Part shown: piece after piece, positions 8,364-20,308 of the stretch
Numbering within the stretch: the stretch's first letter is position 1
How the letters are laid out: the number at the start of each line of letters is the position of its first letter
Source of the DNA: a virus
Virus record (IMG/VR): IMGVR_UViG_3300030202_002216
Location: 1-20,651 of that record
DNA: 20,651 bases
Strand: one strand, 5' to 3'
Program-made: the position numbers and the translations under genes
The notes under the pieces: model-generated
Told to the model about the DNA's origin: nothing
The model's database searches: none
The model's input: only the letters and a program-made list of their open reading frames with translations

Positions 8364-8575
8364 TAGAATCTGTAGTAGCTTTGTTGATGTTTGTAAACGC
8401 AGAAATTAAGGAAGCCCGTTATCAAATTGATGGTATGGCACAATGTTTACGTGGCAAACGTCAGGCTGAAAGACAATACTCAGAAAATGTCATGTATAAA
8501 TGCTGGAAGGGTTCTGCAGAATTAGAACAAAATATTGATGGCTCAAAATCGATCAAGAAGCTTATAATAGAATGA
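8360..8575 (+). CDS. Small conserved phage protein, possibly exported
   Basis: A 71-residue protein starting with a short hydrophobic stretch (IESVVALLMFVNA) that could be a signal peptide cut after VNA. The mature part is charged and helical, with two Cys (29 and 48) that could form a disulfide. Starts and stops overlap both neighbours by 4 bases (ATGA), so translation is coupled across 7944-10338. I recognise similar short proteins from marine phage genomes, but their function is not known. Confidence 0.65.
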   Translation: MIESVVALLMFVNAEIKEARYQIDGMAQCLRGKRQAERQYSENVMYKCWKGSAELEQNIDGSKSIKKLIIE

Positions 8576-10338
8576 AATGGTTAATACCATTATTGTTATT
8601 AACAACTAGTGTATTTGCAGAAAACGATACAGCTACATCTACAAACATATTACCAAACGCAGGAACAACTTCATCTAATATGGATAACCATAATTTAGAT
8701 GGTGTAAACTCAGGCACAGGTAATTTATCTAACAATTCTACACACAACGGATTTACTATAACTTGTGACACAACAATCGATGGCCATTGTGGTAGAGCAT
8801 TTAATGGAGAGTTAGAATCAAGTCGTGACATGAAAGTATCAGCAGGAGATACTTTAGTTGGCGTAACAGGTACAGAATCTGGCACAACATATACAGCAAC
8901 ACAAAATAAATTAGATGGTGGCATAATATTAAATTCTTATTTTACAGTTCAAAACTGTGAAGATGGATCAAGTTCTTTTAGTTGTGGTCAATCAAGTGGT
9001 GCTGATGACAGCTATGTTCTTCATTTAAAAATTAAAGATGCTGATGGAAATACATTAGCTGACATGACAACTACAAGACTCAATGATGCAGGTTATAATG
9101 CAAACAGTGCTAAGTTTGAAGATAGTTTAACTTGGAATGGCACTGGTGGTGCTAGTTATGAATGGTACTGGCAAGGGTTTGATGGGCAACAAAGTACATC
9201 AGCTTTACGAGGACCCAACCTATTAGGTGCAGAACTACTATTAGATTTTCCAATAGATGATCACGAGGCATTAACACTAGAAGAAAGAACAGTTATTAAC
9301 GAAGCATTAAATACAACAGAACTTACAGAGAATGAAATCTATGACATTATATCTGGATTAGAGTCTATAATTGAAGAAGAGTTTTTTGCATCAGGTAATT
9401 TAGAAGAAGAAGCTAGAGTAGAACTTAGTATAGAAGAAACAGGTATAACGATTGAAGTAGCTTCTACTTCAACTGGAGCTATTATAATGGAAGCACCAAT
9501 GGTTCAAGAAATGTTTGCTCCTGTAATGGAAGAAATGCCTATTGAAACATTAAAAGAAGAAATGGTTGCAATGATACAAGAAGAAGAAATGTCTTTTATG
9601 GAAGTAATGGAGGAACTAGCACCACCTCCACCACCTATGGAATTAATAGAAGAAATGAAAGAAGAGGAACCTGTTGCAATGACAAGTAAACCTGTAATGG
9701 AAGAAGAAGCACCTAAAGAAGAAGAACCTAAAGCTATGGCAACTGGACCTATGATGAGTGCACCACCACAAGAGAAGGAAGAGACGAGCAGCAAGGAGCC
9801 ACCACCTATGGAAGTAGCATCTGCACCTAAAGAAGAAACACCAAAAGAAGAAGAATCTGTAAAAGAAGAAAAAAATATGGTAGAAGCTAAAAATGAAGAA
9901 GAAAGTAAAGAACCTGAAGAAGAGAAATCTACTAGCGAGAATGCTACAACATCCGTTGTTTCAAAACAAAATAATACCAAACAAAAAAAGGTACAATCGA
10001 AAGAAACTGTTAAACCTAAATTAAAAGTTATAATGGCTAAAGTAGATGCCAAAGTAAAAAACCCTTTAAAAAATTTACAACTTAAAAATTTAATAAAAAT
10101 GGATGCAATGGTAGATAATCAATTATCTTTAGATTCCTATAATGTGGCATTTTATGCACCAAAAGATATATATTTAGAGCAATTAAACCTTATAGATAAT
10201 AGGTTAATTTATTCAGATAAGACTCTTGCAACGTATATTCAAAATGATAAGATAGAAATCAAAGCTAAAAAACTTGAAGAGATAAATTCTAAGAAACAAC
10301 AGCTTTTAATAGAACTAGAGGTATTAAAAAATGGATAA
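8572..10338 (+). CDS. Large secreted protein with Glu/Pro/Met-rich repeat region
   Basis: A 588-residue protein. A signal peptide (residues 1-16, cut after SVFA) is followed by an Asn/Thr/Ser/Gly-rich domain to about residue 230. That domain has four Cys and ends in a GLDGQQST-like, Trp-rich segment (WYWQGF) that looks like a beta-rich adhesive fold. A helical region spans about 235-285. Residues about 300-460 are low complexity, with repeated blocks of PMMEE, EEEAPKEEEPK and APPPPPM. A basic Lys-rich C-terminal domain follows (about 470-588), ending in a coiled coil. The order suggests an exported adhesin-like or virion-surface protein. The strong antisense frame here is a by-product of the Glu codons. 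The function is unknown. Confidence 0.85.
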   Translation: MKWLIPLLLLTTSVFAENDTATSTNILPNAGTTSSNMDNHNLDGVNSGTGNLSNNSTHNGFTITCDTTIDGHCGRAFNGELESSRDMKVSAGDTLVGVTGTESGTTYTATQNKLDGGIILNSYFTVQNCEDGSSSFSCGQSSGADDSYVLHLKIKDADGNTLADMTTTRLNDAGYNANSAKFEDSLTWNGTGGASYEWYWQGFDGQQSTSALRGPNLLGAELLLDFPIDDHEALTLEERTVINEALNTTELTENEIYDIISGLESIIEEEFFASGNLEEEARVELSIEETGITIEVASTSTGAIIMEAPMVQEMFAPVMEEMPIETLKEEMVAMIQEEEMSFMEVMEELAPPPPPMELIEEMKEEEPVAMTSKPVMEEEAPKEEEPKAMATGPMMSAPPQEKEETSSKEPPPMEVASAPKEETPKEEESVKEEKNMVEAKNEEESKEPEEEKSTSENATTSVVSKQNNTKQKKVQSKETVKPKLKVIMAKVDAKVKNPLKNLQLKNLIKMDAMVDNQLSLDSYNVAFYAPKDIYLEQLNLIDNRLIYSDKTLATYIQNDKIEIKAKKLEEINSKKQQLLIELEVLKNG

Positions 10339-13034: not shown

Positions 13035-13182
13035 TATAAGAGGACCTAATGATCTTGAAGAAATAATAGAAAGATTAGAAAAAAACAATGAAGAACTAAA
13101 AAAAGATAATTGGACTCTTGCAAAAGAAATAGATCGTTTAAATGAATACGTGCAAGTATTAGAAATGGAGAAAAAAAAATGA
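13018..13182 (+). CDS. 54-residue coiled-coil protein
   Basis: It starts MTKKNNIRGPNDLEEIIERL, followed by a continuous amphipathic helix with heptads (LEEIIERLEKNNEELKKDN, then LNEYVQVLEME). It overlaps the lipoprotein gene by 17 bases and the oxygenase gene by 4 bases. It probably self-assembles. No role is evident, though adjacency to the oxygenase is consistent with translational coupling. Confidence 0.6.
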   Translation: MTKKNNIRGPNDLEEIIERLEKNNEELKKDNWTLAKEIDRLNEYVQVLEMEKKK

Positions 13183-13862
13183 CTGAGGAAAAGAAAAAAC
13201 AGATTAGACTAGAGTATCAAATGTTTAGATGGGGTCCTTTGTTGATGAAAACAACGATAACAGAAGAAATAAAACTTAAATTTTTAAGTGAAGCAAAAGC
13301 AAGCACATTAGATTTTGAACCCAAGTTAGCGGGTATGCTTAAAAAAGAAGTAGGATTTAGAGATAGTAAAATATTTCTACCTTTCTTTAACCAAATGTTT
13401 GATATGTATGCTGATGCACAATTTAAATGGTCGCCAGAAGTTACTACAAAACCTGAAGATTTTAAACAACAGTACACATTAGATTCTTTATGGTGTAACT
13501 TTCAAGGGCCAGGTGACTTTAATCCACCTCACGATCATGGTGGGGCATTATCTTGGGTTATCTATTTAACCATACCAGAAGCTCTAAAGAAGGAGCAAGC
13601 AGCCTATAAAGGCCGTTCTGCAGGTCCTGGGGGTATAACTTTTATATATGGTGAAGGACCAAGAACTTACATAACACACCATTCACATTTTCCACAAGAA
13701 AGAGATATGTTTATATTTCCTGCAGCATTAAAACATTGGGTGTTTCCATTTAAAAGTGATTGCACAAGGGTGTCAGTGTCTGGCAATGTAAGTGATTCAA
13801 TTAACTTTAAATATTTAAATAATCATTTTAAAGAACAAAAGGAAGGAGAAAAAAATGAATAA
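13179..13862 (+). CDS. 2OG-Fe(II) oxygenase-like protein 1
   Basis: A 227-residue protein of the 2-oxoglutarate/Fe(II) oxygenase type. The candidate metal site is H118-D119-H120 in PPHDHGGALSWVIYL, a first motif of HxH form as in the PF13759-like branch seen in marine phages. The distal site is H186 (KHWVFPF), with R197 (TRVSVSGN) as the 2-oxoglutarate-binding residue. The spacing H186 to R197 is +11. Such enzymes hydroxylate proteins, nucleic acids or small molecules, and the substrate here is unknown. GGAG at 13167-13170 supports the start, and the gene overlaps the previous and next genes by 4 and 8 bases. Confidence 0.85.
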   Translation: MTEEKKKQIRLEYQMFRWGPLLMKTTITEEIKLKFLSEAKASTLDFEPKLAGMLKKEVGFRDSKIFLPFFNQMFDMYADAQFKWSPEVTTKPEDFKQQYTLDSLWCNFQGPGDFNPPHDHGGALSWVIYLTIPEALKKEQAAYKGRSAGPGGITFIYGEGPRTYITHHSHFPQERDMFIFPAALKHWVFPFKSDCTRVSVSGNVSDSINFKYLNNHFKEQKEGEKNE

Positions 13863-14073
13863 CTTAACAGTAAAAAGAGTTATTAAAAGACAGTACAATA
13901 CTATCATAGATGAACAAGAAAAAATAAAAAGAGTCTTGTCTATGGAAACAGATGATTTATTACCATCACAATTATCTGTTGGACTATTAGTTAGAGTCGA
14001 GCAGCATCTTGATGTAATTATTCAAGCACAAAATAGAATTGTATTGTTACAAGAAATAGTAAACCCGGAGTAA
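13855..14073 (+). CDS. 72-residue helical protein, unknown function
   Basis: It begins MNNLTVKRVIKRQYNTIIDE and is mostly helical, with a mid-region DDLLPSQLSVGLLVRVEQHL. There is no signal or metal motif. A purine-rich AAGGAAGGAG (about 13841-13850) provides the ribosome site. It overlaps the oxygenase by 8 bases, so it may be translationally coupled to it. Confidence 0.6.
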   Translation: MNNLTVKRVIKRQYNTIIDEQEKIKRVLSMETDDLLPSQLSVGLLVRVEQHLDVIIQAQNRIVLLQEIVNPE

Positions 14074-14076
14074 ACT

Positions 14077-14241
14077 ATGGCTAATGAAACAGTGTTGTTA
14101 TATGGTAAAACTGAATTACCTGTTGATGATTGTAAAGTTAAATTTAAAGATAAACACGGTAAAGAATACATAGTTGAAATATCTCGTTTGATTAAAGTAT
14201 TTAATAATAATATTTGGGAGAATAAAAAGAGTGTCAAATAA
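14077..14241 (+). CDS. 54-residue protein, unknown function
   Basis: It starts MANETVLLYGKTELPVDDCK and looks beta-rich with a basic tail. A ribosome site GGAG lies at 14067-14070. It overlaps the next gene by 11 bases in a different frame. No family can be assigned. Confidence 0.55.
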   Translation: MANETVLLYGKTELPVDDCKVKFKDKHGKEYIVEISRLIKVFNNNIWENKKSVK

Positions 14242-14491
14242 AAGAAAGCAAGAAGCAATGGCAGAGGTAAAATACATGCAATCAAAAAGTGAGGGTACAA
14301 GAGATATGAAAGCTATGAAAAAAAGACCATCAGGCAGAACGTTTGATGGTGTATCACGTCCATCTAATAATACATACAGGACAAATTTTGATGAAATATT
14401 TGGTAAAAAAGAACAAGATGAATTAAAGGAAAGTTATGAACAATCTAAACGTAATAAAAAAGAAAGAATTTCTGGAAATAAAAAACTGTAG
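14231..14491 (+). CDS. Conserved small charged phage protein
   Basis: 86 residues from a GTG start (14231), inside the end of the previous gene. The segment with KKRPSGRTFDGVSRPSNNTY (residues about 31-50) is of a kind I recognise from marine phage genomes. The protein is hydrophilic and highly charged with no hydrophobic core, so it may be partly disordered. It overlaps the HNH gene by 56 bases in another frame. The function is unknown. Confidence 0.7.
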   Translation: MSNKRKQEAMAEVKYMQSKSEGTRDMKAMKKRPSGRTFDGVSRPSNNTYRTNFDEIFGKKEQDELKESYEQSKRNKKERISGNKKL

Positions 14492-15035
14492 TATTTGTAA
14501 ACAAAAACTTAGTTTAAATAATTTTTATTTAAGTCACAATGGTCAATATAATTTTTGTTGTATACCCTGTGACAAGAAACGAAAACTCTTGTATCGTGCT
14601 GAAAATAAAGAGAAAATTGCATTAGCGGATCACAAGTATATTAACACAGAGAGAGGTTATGTGGGTGAAGTTATCAGTGGTATTTTTCAAAGACACAAGA
14701 AAAAGAATACTAGAATTAAATGGATACCAGAATGCACTAAACAAGAATTATATGATGAGTTGATGTTATATATACAAGACTTTGGTCGAAACTGTGAGTA
14801 TTGCAAACAACCTTGGACTTATAAACGAGCACTAGGTGTTAGAGGAACACAAAATACTGCACGCAAACGTGCTGGTGTTGAGTCTAATTTTTCAATTGAC
14901 CGGTTAGATTCTACTAAAACTTATAAACAAGGCAACATAGTATTCTGTTGTGTGGGTTGTAACAATAGAAAGAATCAAGTAAGATTGTCTGATGTTGTCA
15001 ACATAGTAAGAGTTTGGATGAAAAGAACAATATGA
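14436..15035 (+). CDS. HNH endonuclease with N-terminal zinc ribbon
   Basis: 199 residues. The N-terminal CSIC...CCIPC forms a zinc ribbon (about residues 18-45). CEYC near residue 121 and CCVGC near residue 175 frame the nuclease core. The HNH-like core is SNFSIDRLDSTKTYKQGN followed by CNNRKN. Such phage nucleases cut DNA during packaging or homing. AAAGGA at 14427-14432 precedes the ATG. I see no flanking intron or disrupted gene, so a packaging or accessory role rather than homing is possible. Confidence 0.85.
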   Translation: MNNLNVIKKKEFLEIKNCSICKQKLSLNNFYLSHNGQYNFCCIPCDKKRKLLYRAENKEKIALADHKYINTERGYVGEVISGIFQRHKKKNTRIKWIPECTKQELYDELMLYIQDFGRNCEYCKQPWTYKRALGVRGTQNTARKRAGVESNFSIDRLDSTKTYKQGNIVFCCVGCNNRKNQVRLSDVVNIVRVWMKRTI

Positions 15036-15112
15036 ATCATATCTTTGTATTTATTTTTACCTTTTTAGGTTTGATGACTTTACTGTCAATTTACATGATG
15101 GTGGTATTATAA
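15032..15112 (+). CDS. 26-residue hydrophobic membrane peptide
   Basis: It encodes MNHIFVFIFTFLGLMTLLSI plus six residues, almost entirely one membrane span. The ATG overlaps the HNH stop (ATGA). No ribosome site is needed if coupled. It may be a tiny membrane protein, but chance cannot be excluded in AT-rich DNA. Confidence 0.5.
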   Translation: MNHIFVFIFTFLGLMTLLSIYMMVVL

Positions 15113-15154
15113 ATATGAAGATTAAAAGAACAATAGATGGAAAGGAGGAAGATA

Positions 15155-15418
15155 ATGAGTTATAATAGAGATCCGTTATACTATCATACAAAAATTAATT
15201 TTGATGAGTTGCTAGAGAAAAGAGAAAAAGCAATCAGGTTTCAAATTGATGGCATTAAAACATGGATGCCTATAAAGTGTTGTAAAAAATTAGATGAAAA
15301 ATCTAAAACAGTTTATATTTGGACAAAAGTGTTAGAATCCAATATGATGCAAGCTAGAGAATATTTTAAAAATTTAAAAAGCACTAACGCTGAAAGTAAA
15401 AAAATTGAATTGGAATAA
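15155..15418 (+). CDS. Small charged protein, unknown function
   Basis: 87 residues starting MSYNRDPLYYHTKINFDELL. I choose ATG 15155 because the perfect AAAGGAGG (15141-15148) lies just upstream, whereas the in-frame ATG at 15137 precedes it. A conserved-looking middle has WMPIKCCKKLDEK and a helical acidic end. It overlaps the following nuclease gene by 14 bases in another frame. No function can be named. Confidence 0.7.
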   Translation: MSYNRDPLYYHTKINFDELLEKREKAIRFQIDGIKTWMPIKCCKKLDEKSKTVYIWTKVLESNMMQAREYFKNLKSTNAESKKIELE

Positions 15419-16085
15419 ACTATATGAGTACCCAAAGACTGTAAGATCATCTGTTGATGGGGTGCGTAAGTATTCTATAGGTAACGAAAAATTACCATCT
15501 GTTACGACTATACTACAAAGCACGCAAGACCCGGAGAAAGCTGAATCTTTGGCCAGGTGGAAAGCACGGGTAGGTAATGCAGAGGCAGATAGAGTCAAGA
15601 ATACTGCAGCTCTACGGGGCACTGCGATGCACACATACTTAGAACATCACGTTAAGGGCGGCAATGTACTAGATTTGACTGACTTGGGACGTGAGGCGAG
15701 CAGCATGGGGCAAACTATCATTGAGAAAGGTTTTCCTGACATGGAAGAAGTATGGGGTGTTGAGTGTACTTTATTTTATCCTGGTCTATATGCAGGCCAA
15801 ACTGATATGTGTGGTATTTATCAGGGGCGTGAAAGTATAATAGATTTTAAGCAATCAAACAAGCCAAAACGTGCCGAGTGGATAGATGAATATAAGTTGC
15901 AGCTAGCAGCGTATGCAACTGCTCATGATTGTATTTTTGGAACGAGCATCGAGCAAGGGGTAATTTTAATGTGTACGCCAGATAATTTCTTTCAACGGTT
16001 TATAGTGAATGGCAGCGAGTTTCGAGAATGGAAATGGAAGTGGCTAAAAAAGATTGACCAATACTATGATAGAAATAATAGATAA
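15405..16085 (+). CDS. PD-(D/E)XK nuclease, RecB/Cas4-like exonuclease
   Basis: 226 residues from a TTG start at 15405 that overlaps the upstream gene. The PD-(D/E)XK core is visible: GLYAGQTDM provides the Asp, IIDFKQS provides the D-x-K, and YKLQLAAYA is the RecB-type Q/Y motif. An N-terminal PSVTTIL and LRGTAMHTYLE segment is typical of phage nucleases of this type. It probably resects DNA ends for recombination, replication or packaging. No ATG gives a longer natural start. Confidence 0.85.
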   Translation: MNWNKLYEYPKTVRSSVDGVRKYSIGNEKLPSVTTILQSTQDPEKAESLARWKARVGNAEADRVKNTAALRGTAMHTYLEHHVKGGNVLDLTDLGREASSMGQTIIEKGFPDMEEVWGVECTLFYPGLYAGQTDMCGIYQGRESIIDFKQSNKPKRAEWIDEYKLQLAAYATAHDCIFGTSIEQGVILMCTPDNFFQRFIVNGSEFREWKWKWLKKIDQYYDRNNR

Positions 16086-16545
16086 CTTTTTAGAAGAAGA
16101 CGAATTTAATAAGATTCGTGATGTTTTAATGAGTGATAATTTTCCGTGGTTTTACAATGATTATATTACTAACAAGAATGATTTAAGTCATAAGTTTTAT
16201 TTTACTCATACGTTTTACAGGCAACCGGCCAGGATAAGTAATTGGTTTGACTTGTGGATCAATACTTTACAAAAATTAAAGTGCAATAGTATAATTAGAA
16301 TTAAAGCAAATATCTACCCTAAAAATAATAAAGAAGAAATAAATAAACCTCATATTGATTATAAATTTAAACATAAAGGTTGCTTATTGTATGTAAATGA
16401 TAATAATGGTGCAACTTATTTTAAAGATAAAAAAGTAATACCGAAAGCTAATAGAATTGTGTTATTTGATCCAAGCATTGAACACTCAAGTAGTCTATGT
16501 ACGGATGCAAAGAGGCGAGTGACTGTAAATTTTAATTATTTCTAA
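16066..16545 (+). CDS. 2OG-Fe(II) oxygenase-like protein 2
   Basis: 159 residues starting MIEIIDNFLEEDEFNKI. I choose ATG 16066 because that start places the conserved NFL...EEF at the N-terminus. The metal site is H96-x-D98 (PHIDYKF) with H140 (EHSSS), and the 2-oxoglutarate residue is R151. It is a near copy in architecture of the next gene: same length, same motif positions, low sequence identity. The first 20 bases overlap the nuclease gene. The substrate is unknown. Confidence 0.85.
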   Translation: MIEIIDNFLEEDEFNKIRDVLMSDNFPWFYNDYITNKNDLSHKFYFTHTFYRQPARISNWFDLWINTLQKLKCNSIIRIKANIYPKNNKEEINKPHIDYKFKHKGCLLYVNDNNGATYFKDKKVIPKANRIVLFDPSIEHSSSLCTDAKRRVTVNFNYF

Positions 16546-16549
16546 AATC

Positions 16550-17032
16550 ATGGATTTAAAGATTGTAAAAAATTATTTAGATAATGAAACTTATTATATA
16601 TTAAACAAAGAAATTAATTCAGATTATTTTCCTTTATATTACACAAATAATGTAAGTTACCGCAATAAAAAAGATAGCTTTATGTTTAATCATATTTTTT
16701 ATAACAATGGTGTAAATAGTAGTTTTTTTGAAAAAATTGTATTACCTTTAATTAAACCTTTAAATGTTAAAAATTTAATAAGAGCAAAATTAAATTTTTA
16801 TACCAATCAAAAACATCAAATAAAACATGTTTATCATACAGATAGTGAGGAAGACCATAAAGTTGCTTTATATTCTTTAAATACAAATAATGGCTATACG
16901 GAATTTGAAAATGGACCTATTGTAAAATCAGTAGCGAATCAGCTGTGTGTATTTGATGGTAAATTAAAACATAGATCTGTTACTCAAACCGATAAAGATT
17001 CCAGGATTAATATAAATATTAATTTTATATAG
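16550..17032 (+). CDS. 2OG-Fe(II) oxygenase-like protein 3, paralogue of the preceding one
   Basis: 160 residues. The metal site is H96-x-D98 (YHTDSEE) with H141 (KHRSV) and R152. The ligand spacing and length match the upstream protein (H96, D98, H140, R151), so the two arose by tandem duplication and then diverged strongly. Both have a Tyr/Phe-rich N-terminal half (YFPLYYTNNV). The genes are 4 bases apart and the product is rich in Asn and Lys. The enzymatic activity is inferred. The substrate is unknown. Confidence 0.85.
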   Translation: MDLKIVKNYLDNETYYILNKEINSDYFPLYYTNNVSYRNKKDSFMFNHIFYNNGVNSSFFEKIVLPLIKPLNVKNLIRAKLNFYTNQKHQIKHVYHTDSEEDHKVALYSLNTNNGYTEFENGPIVKSVANQLCVFDGKLKHRSVTQTDKDSRINININFI

Positions 17033-17043
17033 GTGAAGAACTT

Positions 17044-17562
17044 ATGAACATAAAAAAAATACAAACAGAATTTATTACAATAGATGTTCCAAATCATAAA
17101 AAACATAAACCTATACTACTGGATTTAATTAGTAAGATGCCTAATAAATCTTTACATAGAGTATCTAAAACAGATTGGGAACTACCTAAGGATTTTAAAA
17201 GAGAATATCTAGAGTATTTTTATGATAATATTGCAACTGATATTATGCACCAACAAAAAAAATATTTTAATGCTGGAAATTGGACTATTGGTAATGCATG
17301 GTTTCAACAGTATGAAAAAAACTCAACTCATGATTATCATACCCATGGTCTTGCAAACTATACCAATGTTTATTTCTTAGAACTACCGGACCCTAAGTTT
17401 AAAACTTCTATAAAAGTTGGAAAAAAAGAGTATAATTACAAGGTAAAAGAAGGCCAGATTATTACCTTTCCAGCGCACCTATTGCATGGTTCTATGTCTA
17501 ATGGTGATCTTAGAAAAACTGTAATTTCTTTTAACTCAAATTTTAAATATTATGTACTATAG
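17044..17562 (+). CDS. 2OG-Fe(II) oxygenase-like protein 4
   Basis: 172 residues. It has an HxH first motif (H99 and H101 in DYHTHGLANYTNVYFLEL), a distal His H148 (LLHGS) and R157, the form seen in PF13759-like phage oxygenases. This differs from the HxD pair upstream and matches the first and fifth oxygenases. AGGTGAAG at 17032-17039 is the ribosome site. The gene overlaps the SET gene by 11 bases. The substrate is unknown, but the coupling to a SET-domain gene suggests a shared protein target. Confidence 0.85.
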   Translation: MNIKKIQTEFITIDVPNHKKHKPILLDLISKMPNKSLHRVSKTDWELPKDFKREYLEYFYDNIATDIMHQQKKYFNAGNWTIGNAWFQQYEKNSTHDYHTHGLANYTNVYFLELPDPKFKTSIKVGKKEYNYKVKEGQIITFPAHLLHGSMSNGDLRKTVISFNSNFKYYVL

Positions 17563-17902
17563 ACCCTTACCTAATGGATTATATATTGGCCTATCTAAGA
17601 TAGAAGGACAAGGAGTGTATACTTCAAAGGAACTGCTGCGTGGTTGTAAATTAGGCGAATCTCATTACCGGATCGATGTATCGGGCGTCAACTCTATTAA
17701 TGAAGAAGAGAATGAAAACATAATAATTAGAACTCCGTTGGGTGGATTTATGAATCATAATGTAAAACCTAATTGTCATCGGTCGCAGATAAGAATTAAA
17801 CCTGGAATTGATAAGTGGGTTATAACTGTGGTTGAAGACATTAATCCTGGTGAAGAATTGACTTTAAAATATGAATTTTATGACCCAGAAAAACCAATTT
17901 AA
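17552..17902 (+). CDS. SET-domain protein, putative protein lysine methyltransferase
   Basis: 116 residues that cover the core of a SET domain. The SAM-binding strand is KIEGQGVYTSKEL (about 17-29), the knot-forming motif is FMNHNVKPNC (66-75), and the C-terminal motif is GEELTLKYEF (105-114). The knot Asn and His are present. The last motif has Lys where Asp often occurs (LKY instead of xDY). The size is shorter than most bacterial SET proteins, so it is a minimal version. It is coupled to the oxygenase gene by an 11-base overlap. A substrate cannot be inferred from sequence. Confidence 0.85.
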   Translation: MYYRPLPNGLYIGLSKIEGQGVYTSKELLRGCKLGESHYRIDVSGVNSINEEENENIIIRTPLGGFMNHNVKPNCHRSQIRIKPGIDKWVITVVEDINPGEELTLKYEFYDPEKPI

Positions 17903-17941
17903 ATTGTGGTAGAACTAAGGCAATTGTGGCAGAAACGAGGC
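17902..17941 (+). repeat. Two 20-base tandem direct repeats
   Basis: AATTGTGGTAGAACTAAGGC (17902-17921) is followed immediately by AATTGTGGCAGAAACGAGGC (17922-17941), with 17 of 20 bases identical. A diverged third copy (GATTGTAGCAGAATTCG) follows at 17954. The first copy starts at the last base of the SET stop codon. The TGTGG core is shared with the larger repeat cluster downstream. Confidence 0.6.
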
Positions 17942-17983
17942 ACGAGTGCGGCGGATTGTAGCAGAATTCGACGTACACATAGT

Positions 17984-18006
17984 CACTTTTTAGTGCATTT
18001 TTTTTT
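17984..18006 (+). terminator. Weak candidate terminator after the SET gene
   Basis: CACT (17984-17987) and AGTG (17992-17995) form a four-base stem around TTTT, followed by nine T's (17998-18006). The stem is too short for a confident intrinsic terminator. The position just after the oxygenase-SET block is suitable. Confidence 0.25.
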
Positions 18007-18011
18007 AAAAA

Positions 18012-18413
18012 TGTGGAAGATTTTTTAAAAACACAGCAAAAAGTATGCGACAGTTTGTCAGTTTTTTGTTTTCGAGAACAAAAATGTGGAAAATGGTATC
18101 AAAAACCCGCATAGAATTTACAGTAACAGGCAAAAATGTGGAAAATGTGGAAGATTCAAAATGCTAGAACCATTGGTATATAAGGAAAGTAATCAATTTC
18201 CACATTTCCACGTTTTTCAAAATGTTTTGAGGCATAAAAATGTTTAAAAGTATTTTAAGTCTTTATTAGTAGAAAAAAATTAAAATTAATTATTTTTCGC
18301 ACTATACAACAAAAGTAGCTTCCACACTTTTAAAATCAAAAATGTGGAAAATGTAGAAAGCCGCAGTAGCCAACACTTTTTTAACATTGAAAATGTGGAA
18401 GAAATGTGGAAGA
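18012..18413. repeat. Cluster of TGTGGAA repeats in both orientations, candidate origin or packaging site
   Basis: This is the largest gene-free stretch. Forward copies are TGTGGAAGA at 18012, 18146, 18394 and 18405, and TGTGGAAAA at 18085, 18137 and 18343. A TGTAGAAAG variant is at 18352. Inverted copies are ATTTCCACA (18196-18204), ATTTCCACG (18204-18212) and GCTTCCACA (18318-18326). A 20-base imperfect inverted repeat pairs 18131-18153 with 18195-18217. TTTTCCACA differs by one base from the E. coli DnaA box TTATCCACA. The AT-rich stretch 18237-18300 could be an unwinding element. The cluster sits near TerS, so a TerS binding site is the other reading. Confidence 0.6.
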
Positions 18414-18598
18414 AGCAAAGTATGCTAGGCACAGTAATATCTATGATGACAGAAAAAGAATTTTGGGATACATTCAATAAAAAACACAATCCTGAATATT
18501 ATTATGCCAAAAATAAAGAAAAAGAAAAAGAGCAAAAGAAAAATAAAAAACAAAAAAACTATACCTTTAAATATAAAATCTTTAGGAAACAAGATTGA
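18404..18598 (+). CDS. Small Lys-rich protein, unknown function, start uncertain
   Basis: A 64-residue protein starting MWKKQSMLGTVISMMTEKEF. The open frame extends upstream to a GTG at 18344, but those 20 residues are encoded by the TGTGGAA repeats, so I prefer the ATG at 18404, or the next ATG at 18422. The C-terminal half is a long Lys/Glu run (KNKEKEKEQKKNKKQKN). It overlaps the next gene by 95 bases in another frame. There is no recognisable domain. Confidence 0.45.
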   Translation: MWKKQSMLGTVISMMTEKEFWDTFNKKHNPEYYYAKNKEKEKEQKKNKKQKNYTFKYKIFRKQD

Positions 18599-18848
18599 TG
18601 CATATCCATTTGTAGTTATAGAATGGTTTGATATCGAGGGGGATGCCGGCTGGAGTTCTACAAAAGATTTAAATAGAGAACAATTACCAACATGTGTTTC
18701 TAGAGGTTATCTGTTAAGTCAGAAAAAAGGCGTCACTAGAATATTTACTGATTATATAAAAACAAAAGACAAACCAACTTTCGATAATATTGGCAACACA
18801 ACTATAATTCCAACGTCAGTGATAGTGTCAATTAAAAGACTTAATTAA
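18504..18848 (+). CDS. Conserved phage protein with a compact domain
   Basis: 114 residues. Residues about 32-114 (YPFVVIEWFDIEGDAGWSS onward, then LPTCVSRGYLLSQ and a TIIPTSVIVSIKRL end) are a domain I recognise from marine phage genomes, of unknown function. The first 31 residues are a Lys-rich extension starting at ATG 18504. It overlaps TerS tail to tail by 8 bases. It could bind nucleic acid near the packaging region, which is inference from position only. Confidence 0.75.
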   Translation: MPKIKKKKKSKRKIKNKKTIPLNIKSLGNKIDAYPFVVIEWFDIEGDAGWSSTKDLNREQLPTCVSRGYLLSQKKGVTRIFTDYIKTKDKPTFDNIGNTTIIPTSVIVSIKRLN

Positions 18849-19368
18849 CTTTTTTTACTTTTGGTAGTCTTGACTGTTCTACTTTCTTTTTTACTTCTTT
18901 AGTAATATCTTCTGCTTCAACACCTTCAAGTATAGGTGAATATTGATCTACAATATCTTTCATTCTTGTTTCTAGTTCCTCTGCGGATAGATCATCTAAC
19001 TTACCAGTTCTAATTATTTTTTGTTCAATATATAATCCTGCTGCTTTACCTCGTGCAACTTCTGCATTAACTGCTGCAGACCATGCACCTTTGTTTAAAG
19101 CTGCTTGTCTTATCTTACCCAATTCTGTGATGTGTCTTCCATAGGTGACATCATATTTTTTTTGATACTCTTCTCTGATCTCACCTATGTATTTAACAAC
19201 TAAAGGGTACTTTTTTGGATTCTGTAATTCTGATGCTGTGATTCGTGCTCTGTCTTTTGCATAGCCTGCTTCGATGGCACATTCAAATGCATACTTACGA
19301 CCTTCGTTAGTCACAAGCTCATGTGCAAACTTAATTTGCATTTCTGTTAATTTTTTTGGTAAACCCAT
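18841..19368 (-). CDS. terS: Terminase small subunit
   Basis: A 175-residue protein on the - strand. The N-terminal LTEMQIKFAHELVTNEGRKY and EAGYAKDRARITASELQNP are the helix-turn-helix region typical of phage small terminases. It binds the phage DNA and recruits the large subunit for packaging. The C-terminal half is helical and Lys/Glu-rich (KEVKKKVEQ), suitable for oligomerisation. It is transcribed opposite to nearly all other genes, and the large subunit is not in the window. There are only about six bases from a possible -10 box to the ATG. Confidence 0.85.
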   Translation of the reverse strand: MGLPKKLTEMQIKFAHELVTNEGRKYAFECAIEAGYAKDRARITASELQNPKKYPLVVKYIGEIREEYQKKYDVTYGRHITELGKIRQAALNKGAWSAAVNAEVARGKAAGLYIEQKIIRTGKLDDLSAEELETRMKDIVDQYSPILEGVEAEDITKEVKKKVEQSRLPKVKKVN

Positions 19369-19370
19369 AG

Positions 19371-19403
19371 TTGACTTATAACGTAACTTGTTGTAAAAAG
19401 CAA
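19371..19403. promoter_or_regulatory. Overlapping divergent promoter pair between terS and the next + strand gene
   Basis: On the + strand, TTGACT (19371-19376) and TAAAAA (19394-19399) have a 17-base spacer, and a start near 19406 would make the transcript of 19407 leaderless. On the - strand, TATAAG (19380-19375) lies about 17 bases from TTGCTT (19403-19398), and its start would coincide with the terS ATG. The two promoters share bases and would compete. An imperfect inverted repeat ACTTGTT/AGCAAGT (19387-19405) lies between them and could be an operator. Confidence 0.45.
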
Positions 19404-19406
19404 GTC

Positions 19407-19646
19407 ATGATTGACGCTAAGTTAATAAGACAAGTCTTAGATAAATTTTTAAAATCAGAGACAGTTAAACATGCAAGAATGCAAGTTAGGACATCAGATG
19501 GTGTATATCACGATATTAAATCAGTTAAGTTATTAGAAAATAAGATCATAGGTTCAAGAGAATCTCATCGTATTGTTATTGAAGTCCTACCTGAACAGGC
19601 CCCAATGGGTAAAGTTGTCAAAGATCATGGGGGTATTATACTTTAA
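19407..19646 (+). CDS. Conserved small phage protein
   Basis: 79 residues starting MIDAKLIRQVLDKFLKSETV. I choose ATG 19407 over an in-frame TTG at 19371 because that TTG forms the -35 of the divergent promoter. It has a KMKVR-like strand followed by a HDIKSVKLLENKIIG segment and a hydrophobic end, as seen in small proteins of marine phages. The function is unknown. It overlaps the next gene by 1 base. Confidence 0.7.
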   Translation: MIDAKLIRQVLDKFLKSETVKHARMQVRTSDGVYHDIKSVKLLENKIIGSRESHRIVIEVLPEQAPMGKVVKDHGGIIL

Positions 19647-20308
19647 TGAGTAATATTGAAACTGTATCTTTGTTTGATACATTACTCTATCAAACACAGC
19701 TTCCAGAATATTTAGAAGATAAAGATTTTATGGCTGTATGTGATGAACATACAGACAAAGCAATAGCAGATGCAAAACAAACTATTGATGATAGGCAAAA
19801 ACGATTTAATGCTGAAATAAAAGATCATGGCATGTCGTATCATTCTGGACCTGAGTTATATAAAGATGATAGACTTGGAGAGTTTGAGTTGTTAATTAGA
19901 AATACAGGTAGAAATATTTTAGAAGATCAAGGTTTTGATTTGTCTAGTCACATATTAGATTATACAGAAATGTGGATACAGAAGTTTGCTTTTGAAGGTG
20001 GTGGACATCAAGATACTCACGTTCATTGGGACAATCATATCTCTGGTTTTTATTTTGTAGAGTGTTCTGAAAGGACATCACGACCAGTATTTCACGATCC
20101 TCGTCCAGGTCGTATGATGTTGAATTTACCTATTAAGGATCATTCTAAACTATGTCCTGCTATGGAAAGACAGATTGTATCTATCAAACCTGGCACACTT
20201 TTAATGTTTAACTCATGGCTGCCGCATCAATTCAGTGTAGATAATGGTATTGATCCATTTAGATTTATACATTTTAACATACAAGCAAGACCTAAGACAT
20301 TACGGTAA
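19646..20308 (+). CDS. 2OG-Fe(II) oxygenase-like protein 5
   Basis: 220 residues. The metal site is H125-V126-H127 (THVHWDNHISGFYFV), again an HxH first motif of the PF13759-like branch. The distal site is H194 (LPHQFSV) with R206 (FRFIHFN). The middle has RPVFHDPRPG, often seen in this branch. It is the largest oxygenase after the first one and the only one next to the packaging genes. The start overlaps the previous stop (TAATG). The substrate is unknown. Confidence 0.85.
   Translation: MSNIETVSLFDTLLYQTQLPEYLEDKDFMAVCDEHTDKAIADAKQTIDDRQKRFNAEIKDHGMSYHSGPELYKDDRLGEFELLIRNTGRNILEDQGFDLSSHILDYTEMWIQKFAFEGGGHQDTHVHWDNHISGFYFVECSERTSRPVFHDPRPGRMMLNLPIKDHSKLCPAMERQIVSIKPGTLLMFNSWLPHQFSVDNGIDPFRFIHFNIQARPKTLR

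Follow-up and report, generated by a model that had tools for sequence, protein, structure and literature searches.

SAR11, the commonest bacteria of the ocean, are the hosts of pelagiphages. Few unexplained genes are as common in marine phages as those for 2OG oxygenases, which have been discussed as DNA-repair or metabolic enzymes. Wittmers et al. 2022 (PMC9599517) reported that HTVC023P-type pelagiphages carry several 2OG-Fe(II) oxygenases that are co-located without being orthologous, and that groups of genes have been transferred between phages; there the oxygenases are partnered with 'ferrochelatases' and treated as auxiliary metabolic genes, as are those enriched in seasonal viruses (PMC11561400). 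Related clusters are present in the cyanophages S-SM1, P-HM2 and S-MbCM7, where a 'denV' gene (T4-GC_100) lies with 2OG-Fe(II) genes.

The window analysed here (the whole stretch of 20,651 nt, IMGVR_UViG_3300030202_002216) belongs to an HTVC023P-type pelagiphage and, like the phages of Wittmers et al., contains several co-located oxygenases. A preliminary description had listed five oxygenase-fold genes (here OxyA to OxyE) and a small SET gene, and all six reading frames are open where they had been placed. For the published pelagiphages the text of that paper describes the oxygenases as nearby but not adjacent, and no SET gene, link to tail fibre type or second-site cassette was reported. The cyanophage clusters contain members of the OxyB/C family next to other oxygenases, in S-SM1 and P-HM2 downstream of tail fibre genes; they differ in being labelled DNA endonuclease V, in having no SET gene and in belonging to myoviruses rather than podoviruses. 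Co-located pelagiphage oxygenases are already published; the literature searched contained neither a link to fibre type nor a relocated SET cassette. A search on phage fibre hydroxylation and phage SET genes, with most subscription journals outside its coverage, returned nothing direct.

Oxygenases of the phage backbone

OxyA (13179-13862), OxyD (17044-17562) and OxyE (19646-20308), all on the plus strand, display an HxH...H arrangement instead of the HxD/E...H triad, with all three His 99-100% conserved (H99, H101 and H148 of OxyD are invariant in 45 sequences). They are classed solely as putative oxygenases of the PF13759 type (2e-12, 4.5e-7 and 1e-12, respectively), OxyD also matching phrog_81 (5e-21). 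When the window was scanned with PF13759 only, 4 of the 5 oxygenase genes gave matches, 2 of them clear. OxyE exceeds the TIGR02466 cut-off of 62.5 bits (70.4), whereas OxyA (33.5) and OxyD (21.9) fall below it, and OxyE matches the two solved TIGR02466/PF13759 proteins 3bvc (2e-9) and 2rg4 (2e-7), neither of which has a named activity. The signatures proposed earlier for all five proteins therefore need to be divided: HxD...H...R holds for OxyB and OxyC only, and a candidate distal Arg for 2-oxoglutarate binding, conserved in at least 90% of OxyB/C sequences and in 99% for OxyA (R197), has no counterpart reaching 85% in OxyD or OxyE.

OxyA lies upstream of a PD-(D/E)XK phage exonuclease gene (15405-16085, plus strand; phrog_298, 5e-47) and occupies the same site in most of 79 OxyA-anchored loci. 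The conserved exonuclease-terminase block ends on the right with the terminase small subunit gene (18841-19368, minus strand; phrog_51, 1.5e-9), itself conserved in 70 loci. OxyE follows this block and is found at the same site in sister loci L129-L131, L241, L246, L248 and L250-L256. OxyA is thus a backbone oxygenase of the phage clade and OxyE one of a subclade, both outside the cassette formed by the remaining genes. Five sister contigs (L129, L130, L131, L198 and L241) are devoid of the cassette but retain OxyE, and OxyA too where the contig extends that far. The single five-oxygenase cluster of the preliminary description is ruled out, since sister phages that lack the cassette still have OxyA and OxyE at their usual sites.

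The OxyB-OxyC-OxyD-SET cassette

The four remaining genes form a cassette (16066-17902, plus strand), with the 3' end of the exonuclease gene as its insertion point. OxyB (16066-16545; phrog_274, 8e-51; PF13640 at 2.5e-4, under the cut-off) and OxyC (16550-17032; phrog_274, 1e-36; without a Pfam match), also both on the plus strand, are 27% identical members of one family with a prolyl-hydroxylase fold. The 2-His-1-carboxylate triad of the 2OG-Fe(II) superfamily is present in both: in OxyC numbering, H96 and D98 are invariant among 24 relatives, and H141 and R152 are each conserved in at least 90%. OxyC is the most divergent of the oxygenases, yet its model is a confident double-stranded beta-helix (AlphaFold2 pLDDT 92.8, pTM 0.88), which bears out the expected fold; assignment of the other four rests on sequence families. 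The top Foldseek matches of the model are prolyl hydroxylases. HIF prolyl hydroxylase 2 (PHD2) is the nearest structure, and its likeness, together with that of the Pseudomonas putida prolyl 4-hydroxylase (4j25), extends through the beta-helix and HxD...H...R along the entire OxyC (Z up to 15.9, VIA-align), although identity is 12-17% and OxyC is shorter (~160 aa versus ~190-220). DNA endonuclease V, the label of phrog_274, is ruled out for this family, as DenV-type enzymes are helical pyrimidine-dimer glycosylases and OxyC has a beta-helix and a conserved HxD...H. The sole hint of a link to defence systems, which is not favoured here, was a weak match of OxyB to a CRISPR-associated '2OG' entry (2e-6).

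The preliminary description left proteins and DNA as alternative targets. Repair or modification of DNA by AlkB-like or hydroxymethylation-type activity has been proposed for cyanophage oxygenases, some of which adjoin uvsX/uvsY/uvsW according to the work cited in PMC9146016 (the phage Mosig shows that neighbourhood), and is consistent with the location of OxyA beside the exonuclease and of OxyE near the terminase. An OxyB/C profile also matches an N6-methyladenine demethylase, but the match is weak and not significant (E 0.08). Moreover, OxyC is closest in fold to peptide hydroxylases, the relatives of OxyB, OxyC and OxyD accompany tail genes rather than DNA genes, and no link of these three to DNA modification was found. 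A role in DNA repair or modification is therefore improbable for the oxygenases in general, less so for OxyA than for OxyB-D, and protein targets are preferred.

The same four genes occur on a second contig, L001, with 97.4% nucleotide identity over 16066-17892, starting exactly at the OxyB ATG, while the flanks are unrelated to those of the window; OxyB-OxyC-OxyD-SET is therefore one unit. Homology between the window and sister phages ends at 16055 and resumes at ~18073, the exonuclease-terminase interval measures 2759 bp against a median of 702 bp in 70 relatives, and the cassette is absent from the equivalent site in every sister phage seen. The last codons of the exonuclease gene differ from those of sister phages. 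Its overlap with OxyB results from the insertion, the cassette supplying the final exonuclease codons and the stop. To the right, the cassette is flanked by noncoding backbone (17903-18500) with an array of AATGTGGAA repeats, which is also present in sister phages; 8 copies lie within 18010-18411 and 9 in the whole window, a number that none of 100 shuffled versions of the window reached.

On L001 the cassette sits between a glycine-rich tail fibre gene and a virion structural protein gene. The structural protein and its counterpart on a sister phage contig share 80% identity, which identifies L001 as a tail locus from this same clade; that of the window phage itself lies outside the 20.6 kb record. 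OxyB shows 0 amino-acid changes between the two copies, and all four genes are under purifying selection (dN/dS 0-0.27). Synonymous divergence is 0.36 for SET and 0.04-0.07 for OxyB-D, and thus the four genes do not have one clean shared history. These were the only two copies among the viral contigs searched, both are from metagenomes and the junction is sharp, as might be seen if the position in the window were an assembly chimera. This is very unlikely: both homology breaks coincide with gene ends, the backbone resumes correctly beyond them, and the copies differ by 47 substitutions, hence they do not derive from one misjoined molecule. The history of the cassette as a unit is well supported.

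The SET gene and its association with oxygenases

SET (17552-17902, plus strand; PF00856, 1.5e-8, over the cut-off) overlaps OxyD by 11 bp, in agreement with the translational overlap noted earlier near this gene. It encodes a minimal SET domain of 116 aa and is a predicted lysine methyltransferase. The fold and the GxG, NHSxxPNC and GEELxxxY motifs of SET domains are present, with core residues invariant or nearly so; TPLGGFxNHSxxPNC and GEELxxKY are conserved in 55 relatives, and the model (pLDDT 88.5) matches MLL4, SETD8 and viral vSET. The closest described counterpart is vSET of Paramecium bursaria chlorella virus 1 (1n3j, 3kma), likewise a viral minimal SET protein (~116-119 aa; profile match 7e-7, and fold), from which the window protein differs in sequence (~21% identity) and in having a host of another kingdom. 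The stand-alone phage SET family comprises at least 575 viral loci, and SET genes occur in four unrelated phage neighbourhoods. To our knowledge, bacteria offer no histone target for a vSET-like enzyme. In the SET tree the window and L001 copies are sister to L241, inside a group from the pelagiphage exonuclease neighbourhood. The neighbours of bacterial SET homologues revealed no consistent pathway.

A coupled module of SET and oxygenases had been proposed, with linkage in related phages set beforehand as the test. As a unit the cassette stands, by virtue of its second contig and purifying selection, and linkage in relatives holds for the oxygenases, both with one another and with the tail fibre locus; for SET it fails. 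Of the SET genes, 10/80 have an oxygenase at a distance of up to 5 kb, compared with 15/80 control exonuclease genes, and SET was found in 0/80 sampled tail loci, ruling out a general or conserved SET-oxygenase operon. SET is stand-alone, widespread and without oxygenase enrichment, and its combination with oxygenases is therefore rare. A sequential pathway on a single substrate, for example lysine methylation by SET that is then recognised, undone or succeeded by hydroxylation, might explain why the four genes remain together with an 11 bp overlap on two contigs with unrelated flanks, and in a second phage (L055) SET lies within an array of six oxygenases. Nevertheless, 70/80 SET loci lack an oxygenase up to that 5 kb distance and the SET copies are far more diverged than the oxygenase copies, so that a joint SET-oxygenase pathway seems decidedly unlikely.

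Tail-locus oxygenase arrays and their possible substrate

Relatives of OxyB, OxyC and OxyD usually occur in arrays between a glycine-rich tail fibre gene and a virion structural protein gene. A tail marker lies within 3 kb in 25/32 loci of OxyB relatives and 20/29 of OxyD relatives, as against 1/79 loci of OxyA and 0/15 of the oxygenases found at exonuclease loci. Tail loci were also sampled via the structural protein, and hence not selected for oxygenases; 33/48 contain at least one. Oxygenases are present in 22/22 loci with the glycine-rich/MAHF fibre and in 11/26 without it, a difference for which the Fisher value of 7e-6 overstates independence because the loci are related. One locus (L399) has a structural protein 95% identical to that of L001 together with another fibre and no oxygenase. 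The layout with oxygenases in the tail locus is also seen in HTVC023P, HTVC027P, HTVC033P and 023Pt_psg01.

Arrays hold up to nine oxygenases and some include a tryptophan halogenase (PF04820, 3e-95). An array-linked 'ferrochelatase', phrog_2954, has no Pfam ferrochelatase match and an invariant HxD...H, and phrog_3531 fuses it to an oxygenase-like half; on these features it is likely an oxygenase. Profile comparison was insensitive here, and a search for solved relatives found none.

The location of these arrays beside host-binding tail fibre genes suggests that the cassette is a relocated set for tail-protein modification. OxyB-D are most likely protein hydroxylases acting on tail fibre proteins, with SET a passenger or second modifier. 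As putative Fe(II) oxygenases they would hydroxylate side chains of newly made tail fibre or neighbouring virion proteins during assembly, altering adhesion or shielding the fibre, and would move together with the fibre type on which they act. The module may have been copied or moved from the tail locus to free space behind the exonuclease gene, from where it could act in trans. The most likely source of SET is a pelagiphage-resident pool of stand-alone SET genes, and its probable targets are lysines of another protein of host or virion; glycine-rich fibres are poor in lysine (3-10 in 320-364 aa), which makes this domain an improbable target of SET. Tail proteins are proposed tentatively as the substrate of OxyB-D, given that prolyl-hydroxylase-like folds, as modelled for OxyC, are also found in enzymes acting on small molecules or nucleic acids (its structure matches include SnoN and ALKBH5). 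The explanation as a whole, with two clade-resident oxygenases and a cassette relocated from the tail locus that modifies a tail protein, is given a probability of about one half. Arrays also accompany other fibres (11/26), which counts against it. A bolder version has the oxygenase arrays, sometimes with a halogenase, chemically alter the glycine-rich fibre that binds the host and change hands together with it, the window phage having a second, relocated copy with SET; this is possible but doubtful.

Alternatively, the oxygenases might serve auxiliary metabolism or host takeover, with small molecules or proteins of the host (e.g., the translation apparatus) as their targets and the tail locus as a mere cargo site for accessory genes. 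Cellular prolyl hydroxylases with the OxyC-type fold modify host proteins, and gene content of the arrays varies greatly; the published treatments (PMC9599517, PMC11561400) class them as auxiliary metabolic genes. Against it, the arrays follow fibre type (22/22 versus 11/26) rather than being randomly distributed, and the flanking structural genes are constant. This alternative is accordingly regarded as rather unlikely.

The analysis separates a stand-alone phage SET family from the oxygenase system. In SAR11 phages, oxygenase arrays are found between tail fibre and virion protein genes, with one for every glycine-rich fibre sampled, and the module is mobile as a unit. Array location, fibre link and mobility together make the tail proteins of the virion itself a specific candidate substrate that can be tested. 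If the arrays do modify the glycine-rich fibre, receptor recognition in these phages would vary through chemistry in addition to sequence.

Protein families and folds

All six genes, five oxygenase-like and one encoding a SET protein, are real, and their positions and families were confirmed. OxyB (16066-16545) and OxyC (16550-17032) belong to one family, phrog_274, in which residues H96, D98, H141 and R152 are conserved among 24 relatives. OxyC had no match in a Pfam search; its structure model is confident (pLDDT 92.8, pTM 0.88), and the nearest solved structures are prolyl hydroxylases (PHD2: Z 15.9, rmsd 2.5 over 151 residues). We therefore reject the label of phrog_274, DNA endonuclease V: since its members have a prolyl-hydroxylase fold, the label (cyanophage ‘denV’, T4-GC_100) looks like an annotation error across many cyanophage records. 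OxyA (13179-13862), OxyD (17044-17562) and OxyE (19646-20308) carry HxH...H, with histidines 99-100% conserved, and thus do not follow the usual 2-His-1-carboxylate rule; judged by sequence, they are putative 2OG users. The SET protein (17552-17902) consists of a minimal SET domain whose motifs are intact, and its good structure model matches the folds of MLL, SETD8 and chlorella virus vSET.

Two histories within 7 kb

The window DNA polymerase is 50-56% identical to those of pelagiphages HTVC023P, HTVC027P and 023Pt_psg01, which share with the window the gene order helicase-polA-M15 peptidase-exonuclease-terminase small subunit. A 588-aa protein (8572-10338) with a signal-like N-terminal segment and long Glu/Pro/Met-rich repeats differs from its neighbours.

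The preliminary description treated the five oxygenases and SET as one cluster. This holds for OxyB-OxyC-OxyD-SET (16066-17902), since the same four genes occur in a second contig, L001, but not for OxyA and OxyE, which are resident in relatives' loci: most of 79 OxyA-anchored loci have OxyA upstream of the exonuclease, and OxyE follows the terminase block in a subclade including the window's closest relatives. The exonuclease-terminase interval is 2759 bp in the window, against a median of 702 bp (70 loci having that interval) and 691-1188 bp in sister phages L129, L130, L131 and L198 (exonuclease 78-85% identical), where OxyB, OxyC, OxyD and SET are absent from it. Homology to the sisters breaks off at 16055 and resumes at about 18073, and homology to L001 runs from 16066, the OxyB ATG, to 17892. 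A further relative, L241, matches most of 12.5-20.6 kb at 82-86% identity. It has no counterpart of 16046-18433, and its SET is a separate one at another position, equivalent to 14410-14476.

Assembly error is a rival explanation here; the two cassette copies, in separate contigs, are distinguished by 47 substitutions, all of them beyond the first 400 bases. Few amino acids have changed anywhere in the cassette, and synonymous divergence climbs from 0.04 in OxyB to 0.36 in SET, which argues against a single simple transfer of SET together with the oxygenases. Searching viral contigs with a DNA pattern derived from OxyB gave no third copy.

Next to the terminase small subunit gene, a dense noncoding AATGTGGAA/TTCCACATT repeat array (18006-18411; also in sister phages at L129:4863-5330 and L131:10687-11040) is a candidate origin or packaging site. 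Eight of the window's nine exact repeat copies are packed in about 400 bp, and none of 100 shuffles reached nine; TTTTCCACA within the array resembles a DnaA box.

SET as an independent element

The SET scan yielded at least 575 viral loci, with neighbourhoods judged in the best 80. In these 80, SET has four settings: the vicinity of the pelagiphage exonuclease, the gap between helicase and polA, a position upstream of the large terminase, and, in cyanomyovirus-like phages, one immediately upstream of baseplate gp25. Twelve cyanomyovirus-like loci (L033, L035, L074, L080-L087 and others) have a small SET directly upstream of gp25 and gp6. Similar stand-alone small SET genes lie on contigs binned to marine bacteria (L320-L374), many being Flavobacteriaceae that have a gene neighbourhood in common.

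A joint pathway of SET and oxygenases is a rival reading, and their linkage across phages was a check named in the preliminary description. That linkage did not hold up: an oxygenase lies within 5 kb in 10 of these best 80 SET loci versus 15 of 80 exonuclease control loci, and SET was found in none of 80 tail loci examined. The SET tree places window and L001 as sister to L241, inside the pelagiphage exonuclease-neighbourhood group (support 100/93). Another contig, L055, has an independent SET within an oxygenase array; the combination, though rare, therefore has at least two origins. SET is independent of the oxygenase arrays. We found no paper on phage SET together with these oxygenases.

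Oxygenase arrays in tail loci

In L001 the four cassette genes are flanked on one side by a glycine-rich fibre and the small ‘MAHF’ protein and on the other by ‘MLQK’, a structural protein (PHROG labels for these surroundings, taken from related loci, are phrog_7759 and phrog_3287, virion structural protein). The L001 structural protein shares 45-48% identity with the 023Pt_psg01, HTVC027P and HTVC023P proteins and 80% with its counterpart in one sister contig of the window phage; L001 is thus a tail locus of the window's clade. Because the window record is a 20,651-base IMG/VR contig, the window phage's own tail genes lie outside it.

A tail marker lies within 3 kb of OxyB relatives in 25 of 32 loci and of OxyD relatives in 20 of 29, of OxyA relatives in 1 of 79, and of exonuclease-locus oxygenases in 0 of 15. 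Tail loci were also anchored on the structural protein, making their selection independent of the oxygenases; of the 48 that extend 2.5 kb or more upstream, oxygenases are present in 33, namely 22 of 22 with the glycine-rich/MAHF fibre versus 11 of 26 without (Fisher p 7e-6, which ignores relatedness of loci). One locus (L399), whose structural protein is 95% identical to that of L001, has another fibre and lacks an oxygenase. We found no paper linking pelagiphage oxygenases to fibre type.

The layout is present in annotations of cultured HTVC023P, HTVC027P and HTVC033P and uncultured 023Pt_psg01; likewise, in cyanophages S-SM1 and P-HM2 the tail fibre genes have oxygenases downstream of them, some belonging to the ‘denV’ family. 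For the pelagiphages, oxygenases located together and multigene transfer are already in the literature (PMC9599517). About nine to ten oxygenase-like genes run in series from tail fibre to structural protein at L394:2217-7793, and tryptophan halogenase genes (PF04820) occur within arrays at L216:5438-6853, L438, L441, L454 and L459.

With linkage, fold and selection observed, we think that OxyB, OxyC and OxyD act on tail-fibre or neighbouring virion proteins, whose side chains they would hydroxylate; substrate and effect we infer. Some receptor-binding fibre tips, gp38 among them, are known to carry glycine-rich motifs (PMC12892980). The glycine-rich fibres of the tail loci have few lysines, which argues against SET acting on the glycine-rich domain. 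Rival readings are that the oxygenases act on DNA, a DNA-repair idea having been published for cyanophage copies (PMC9146016), or in host metabolism or on host proteins.

The phrog_2954 ‘ferrochelatase’ (HTVC023P gp67, 023Pt_psg01 URG13120.1, L227:3820-4455), which has been reported to accompany pelagiphage oxygenases, matches no ferrochelatase family in Pfam and has an HxD...H motif that is invariant, and so is probably a further oxygenase. Seasonality of these oxygenases has been published (PMC11561400); if phrog_2954 is an oxygenase, published partner-gene and seasonality claims would be affected.
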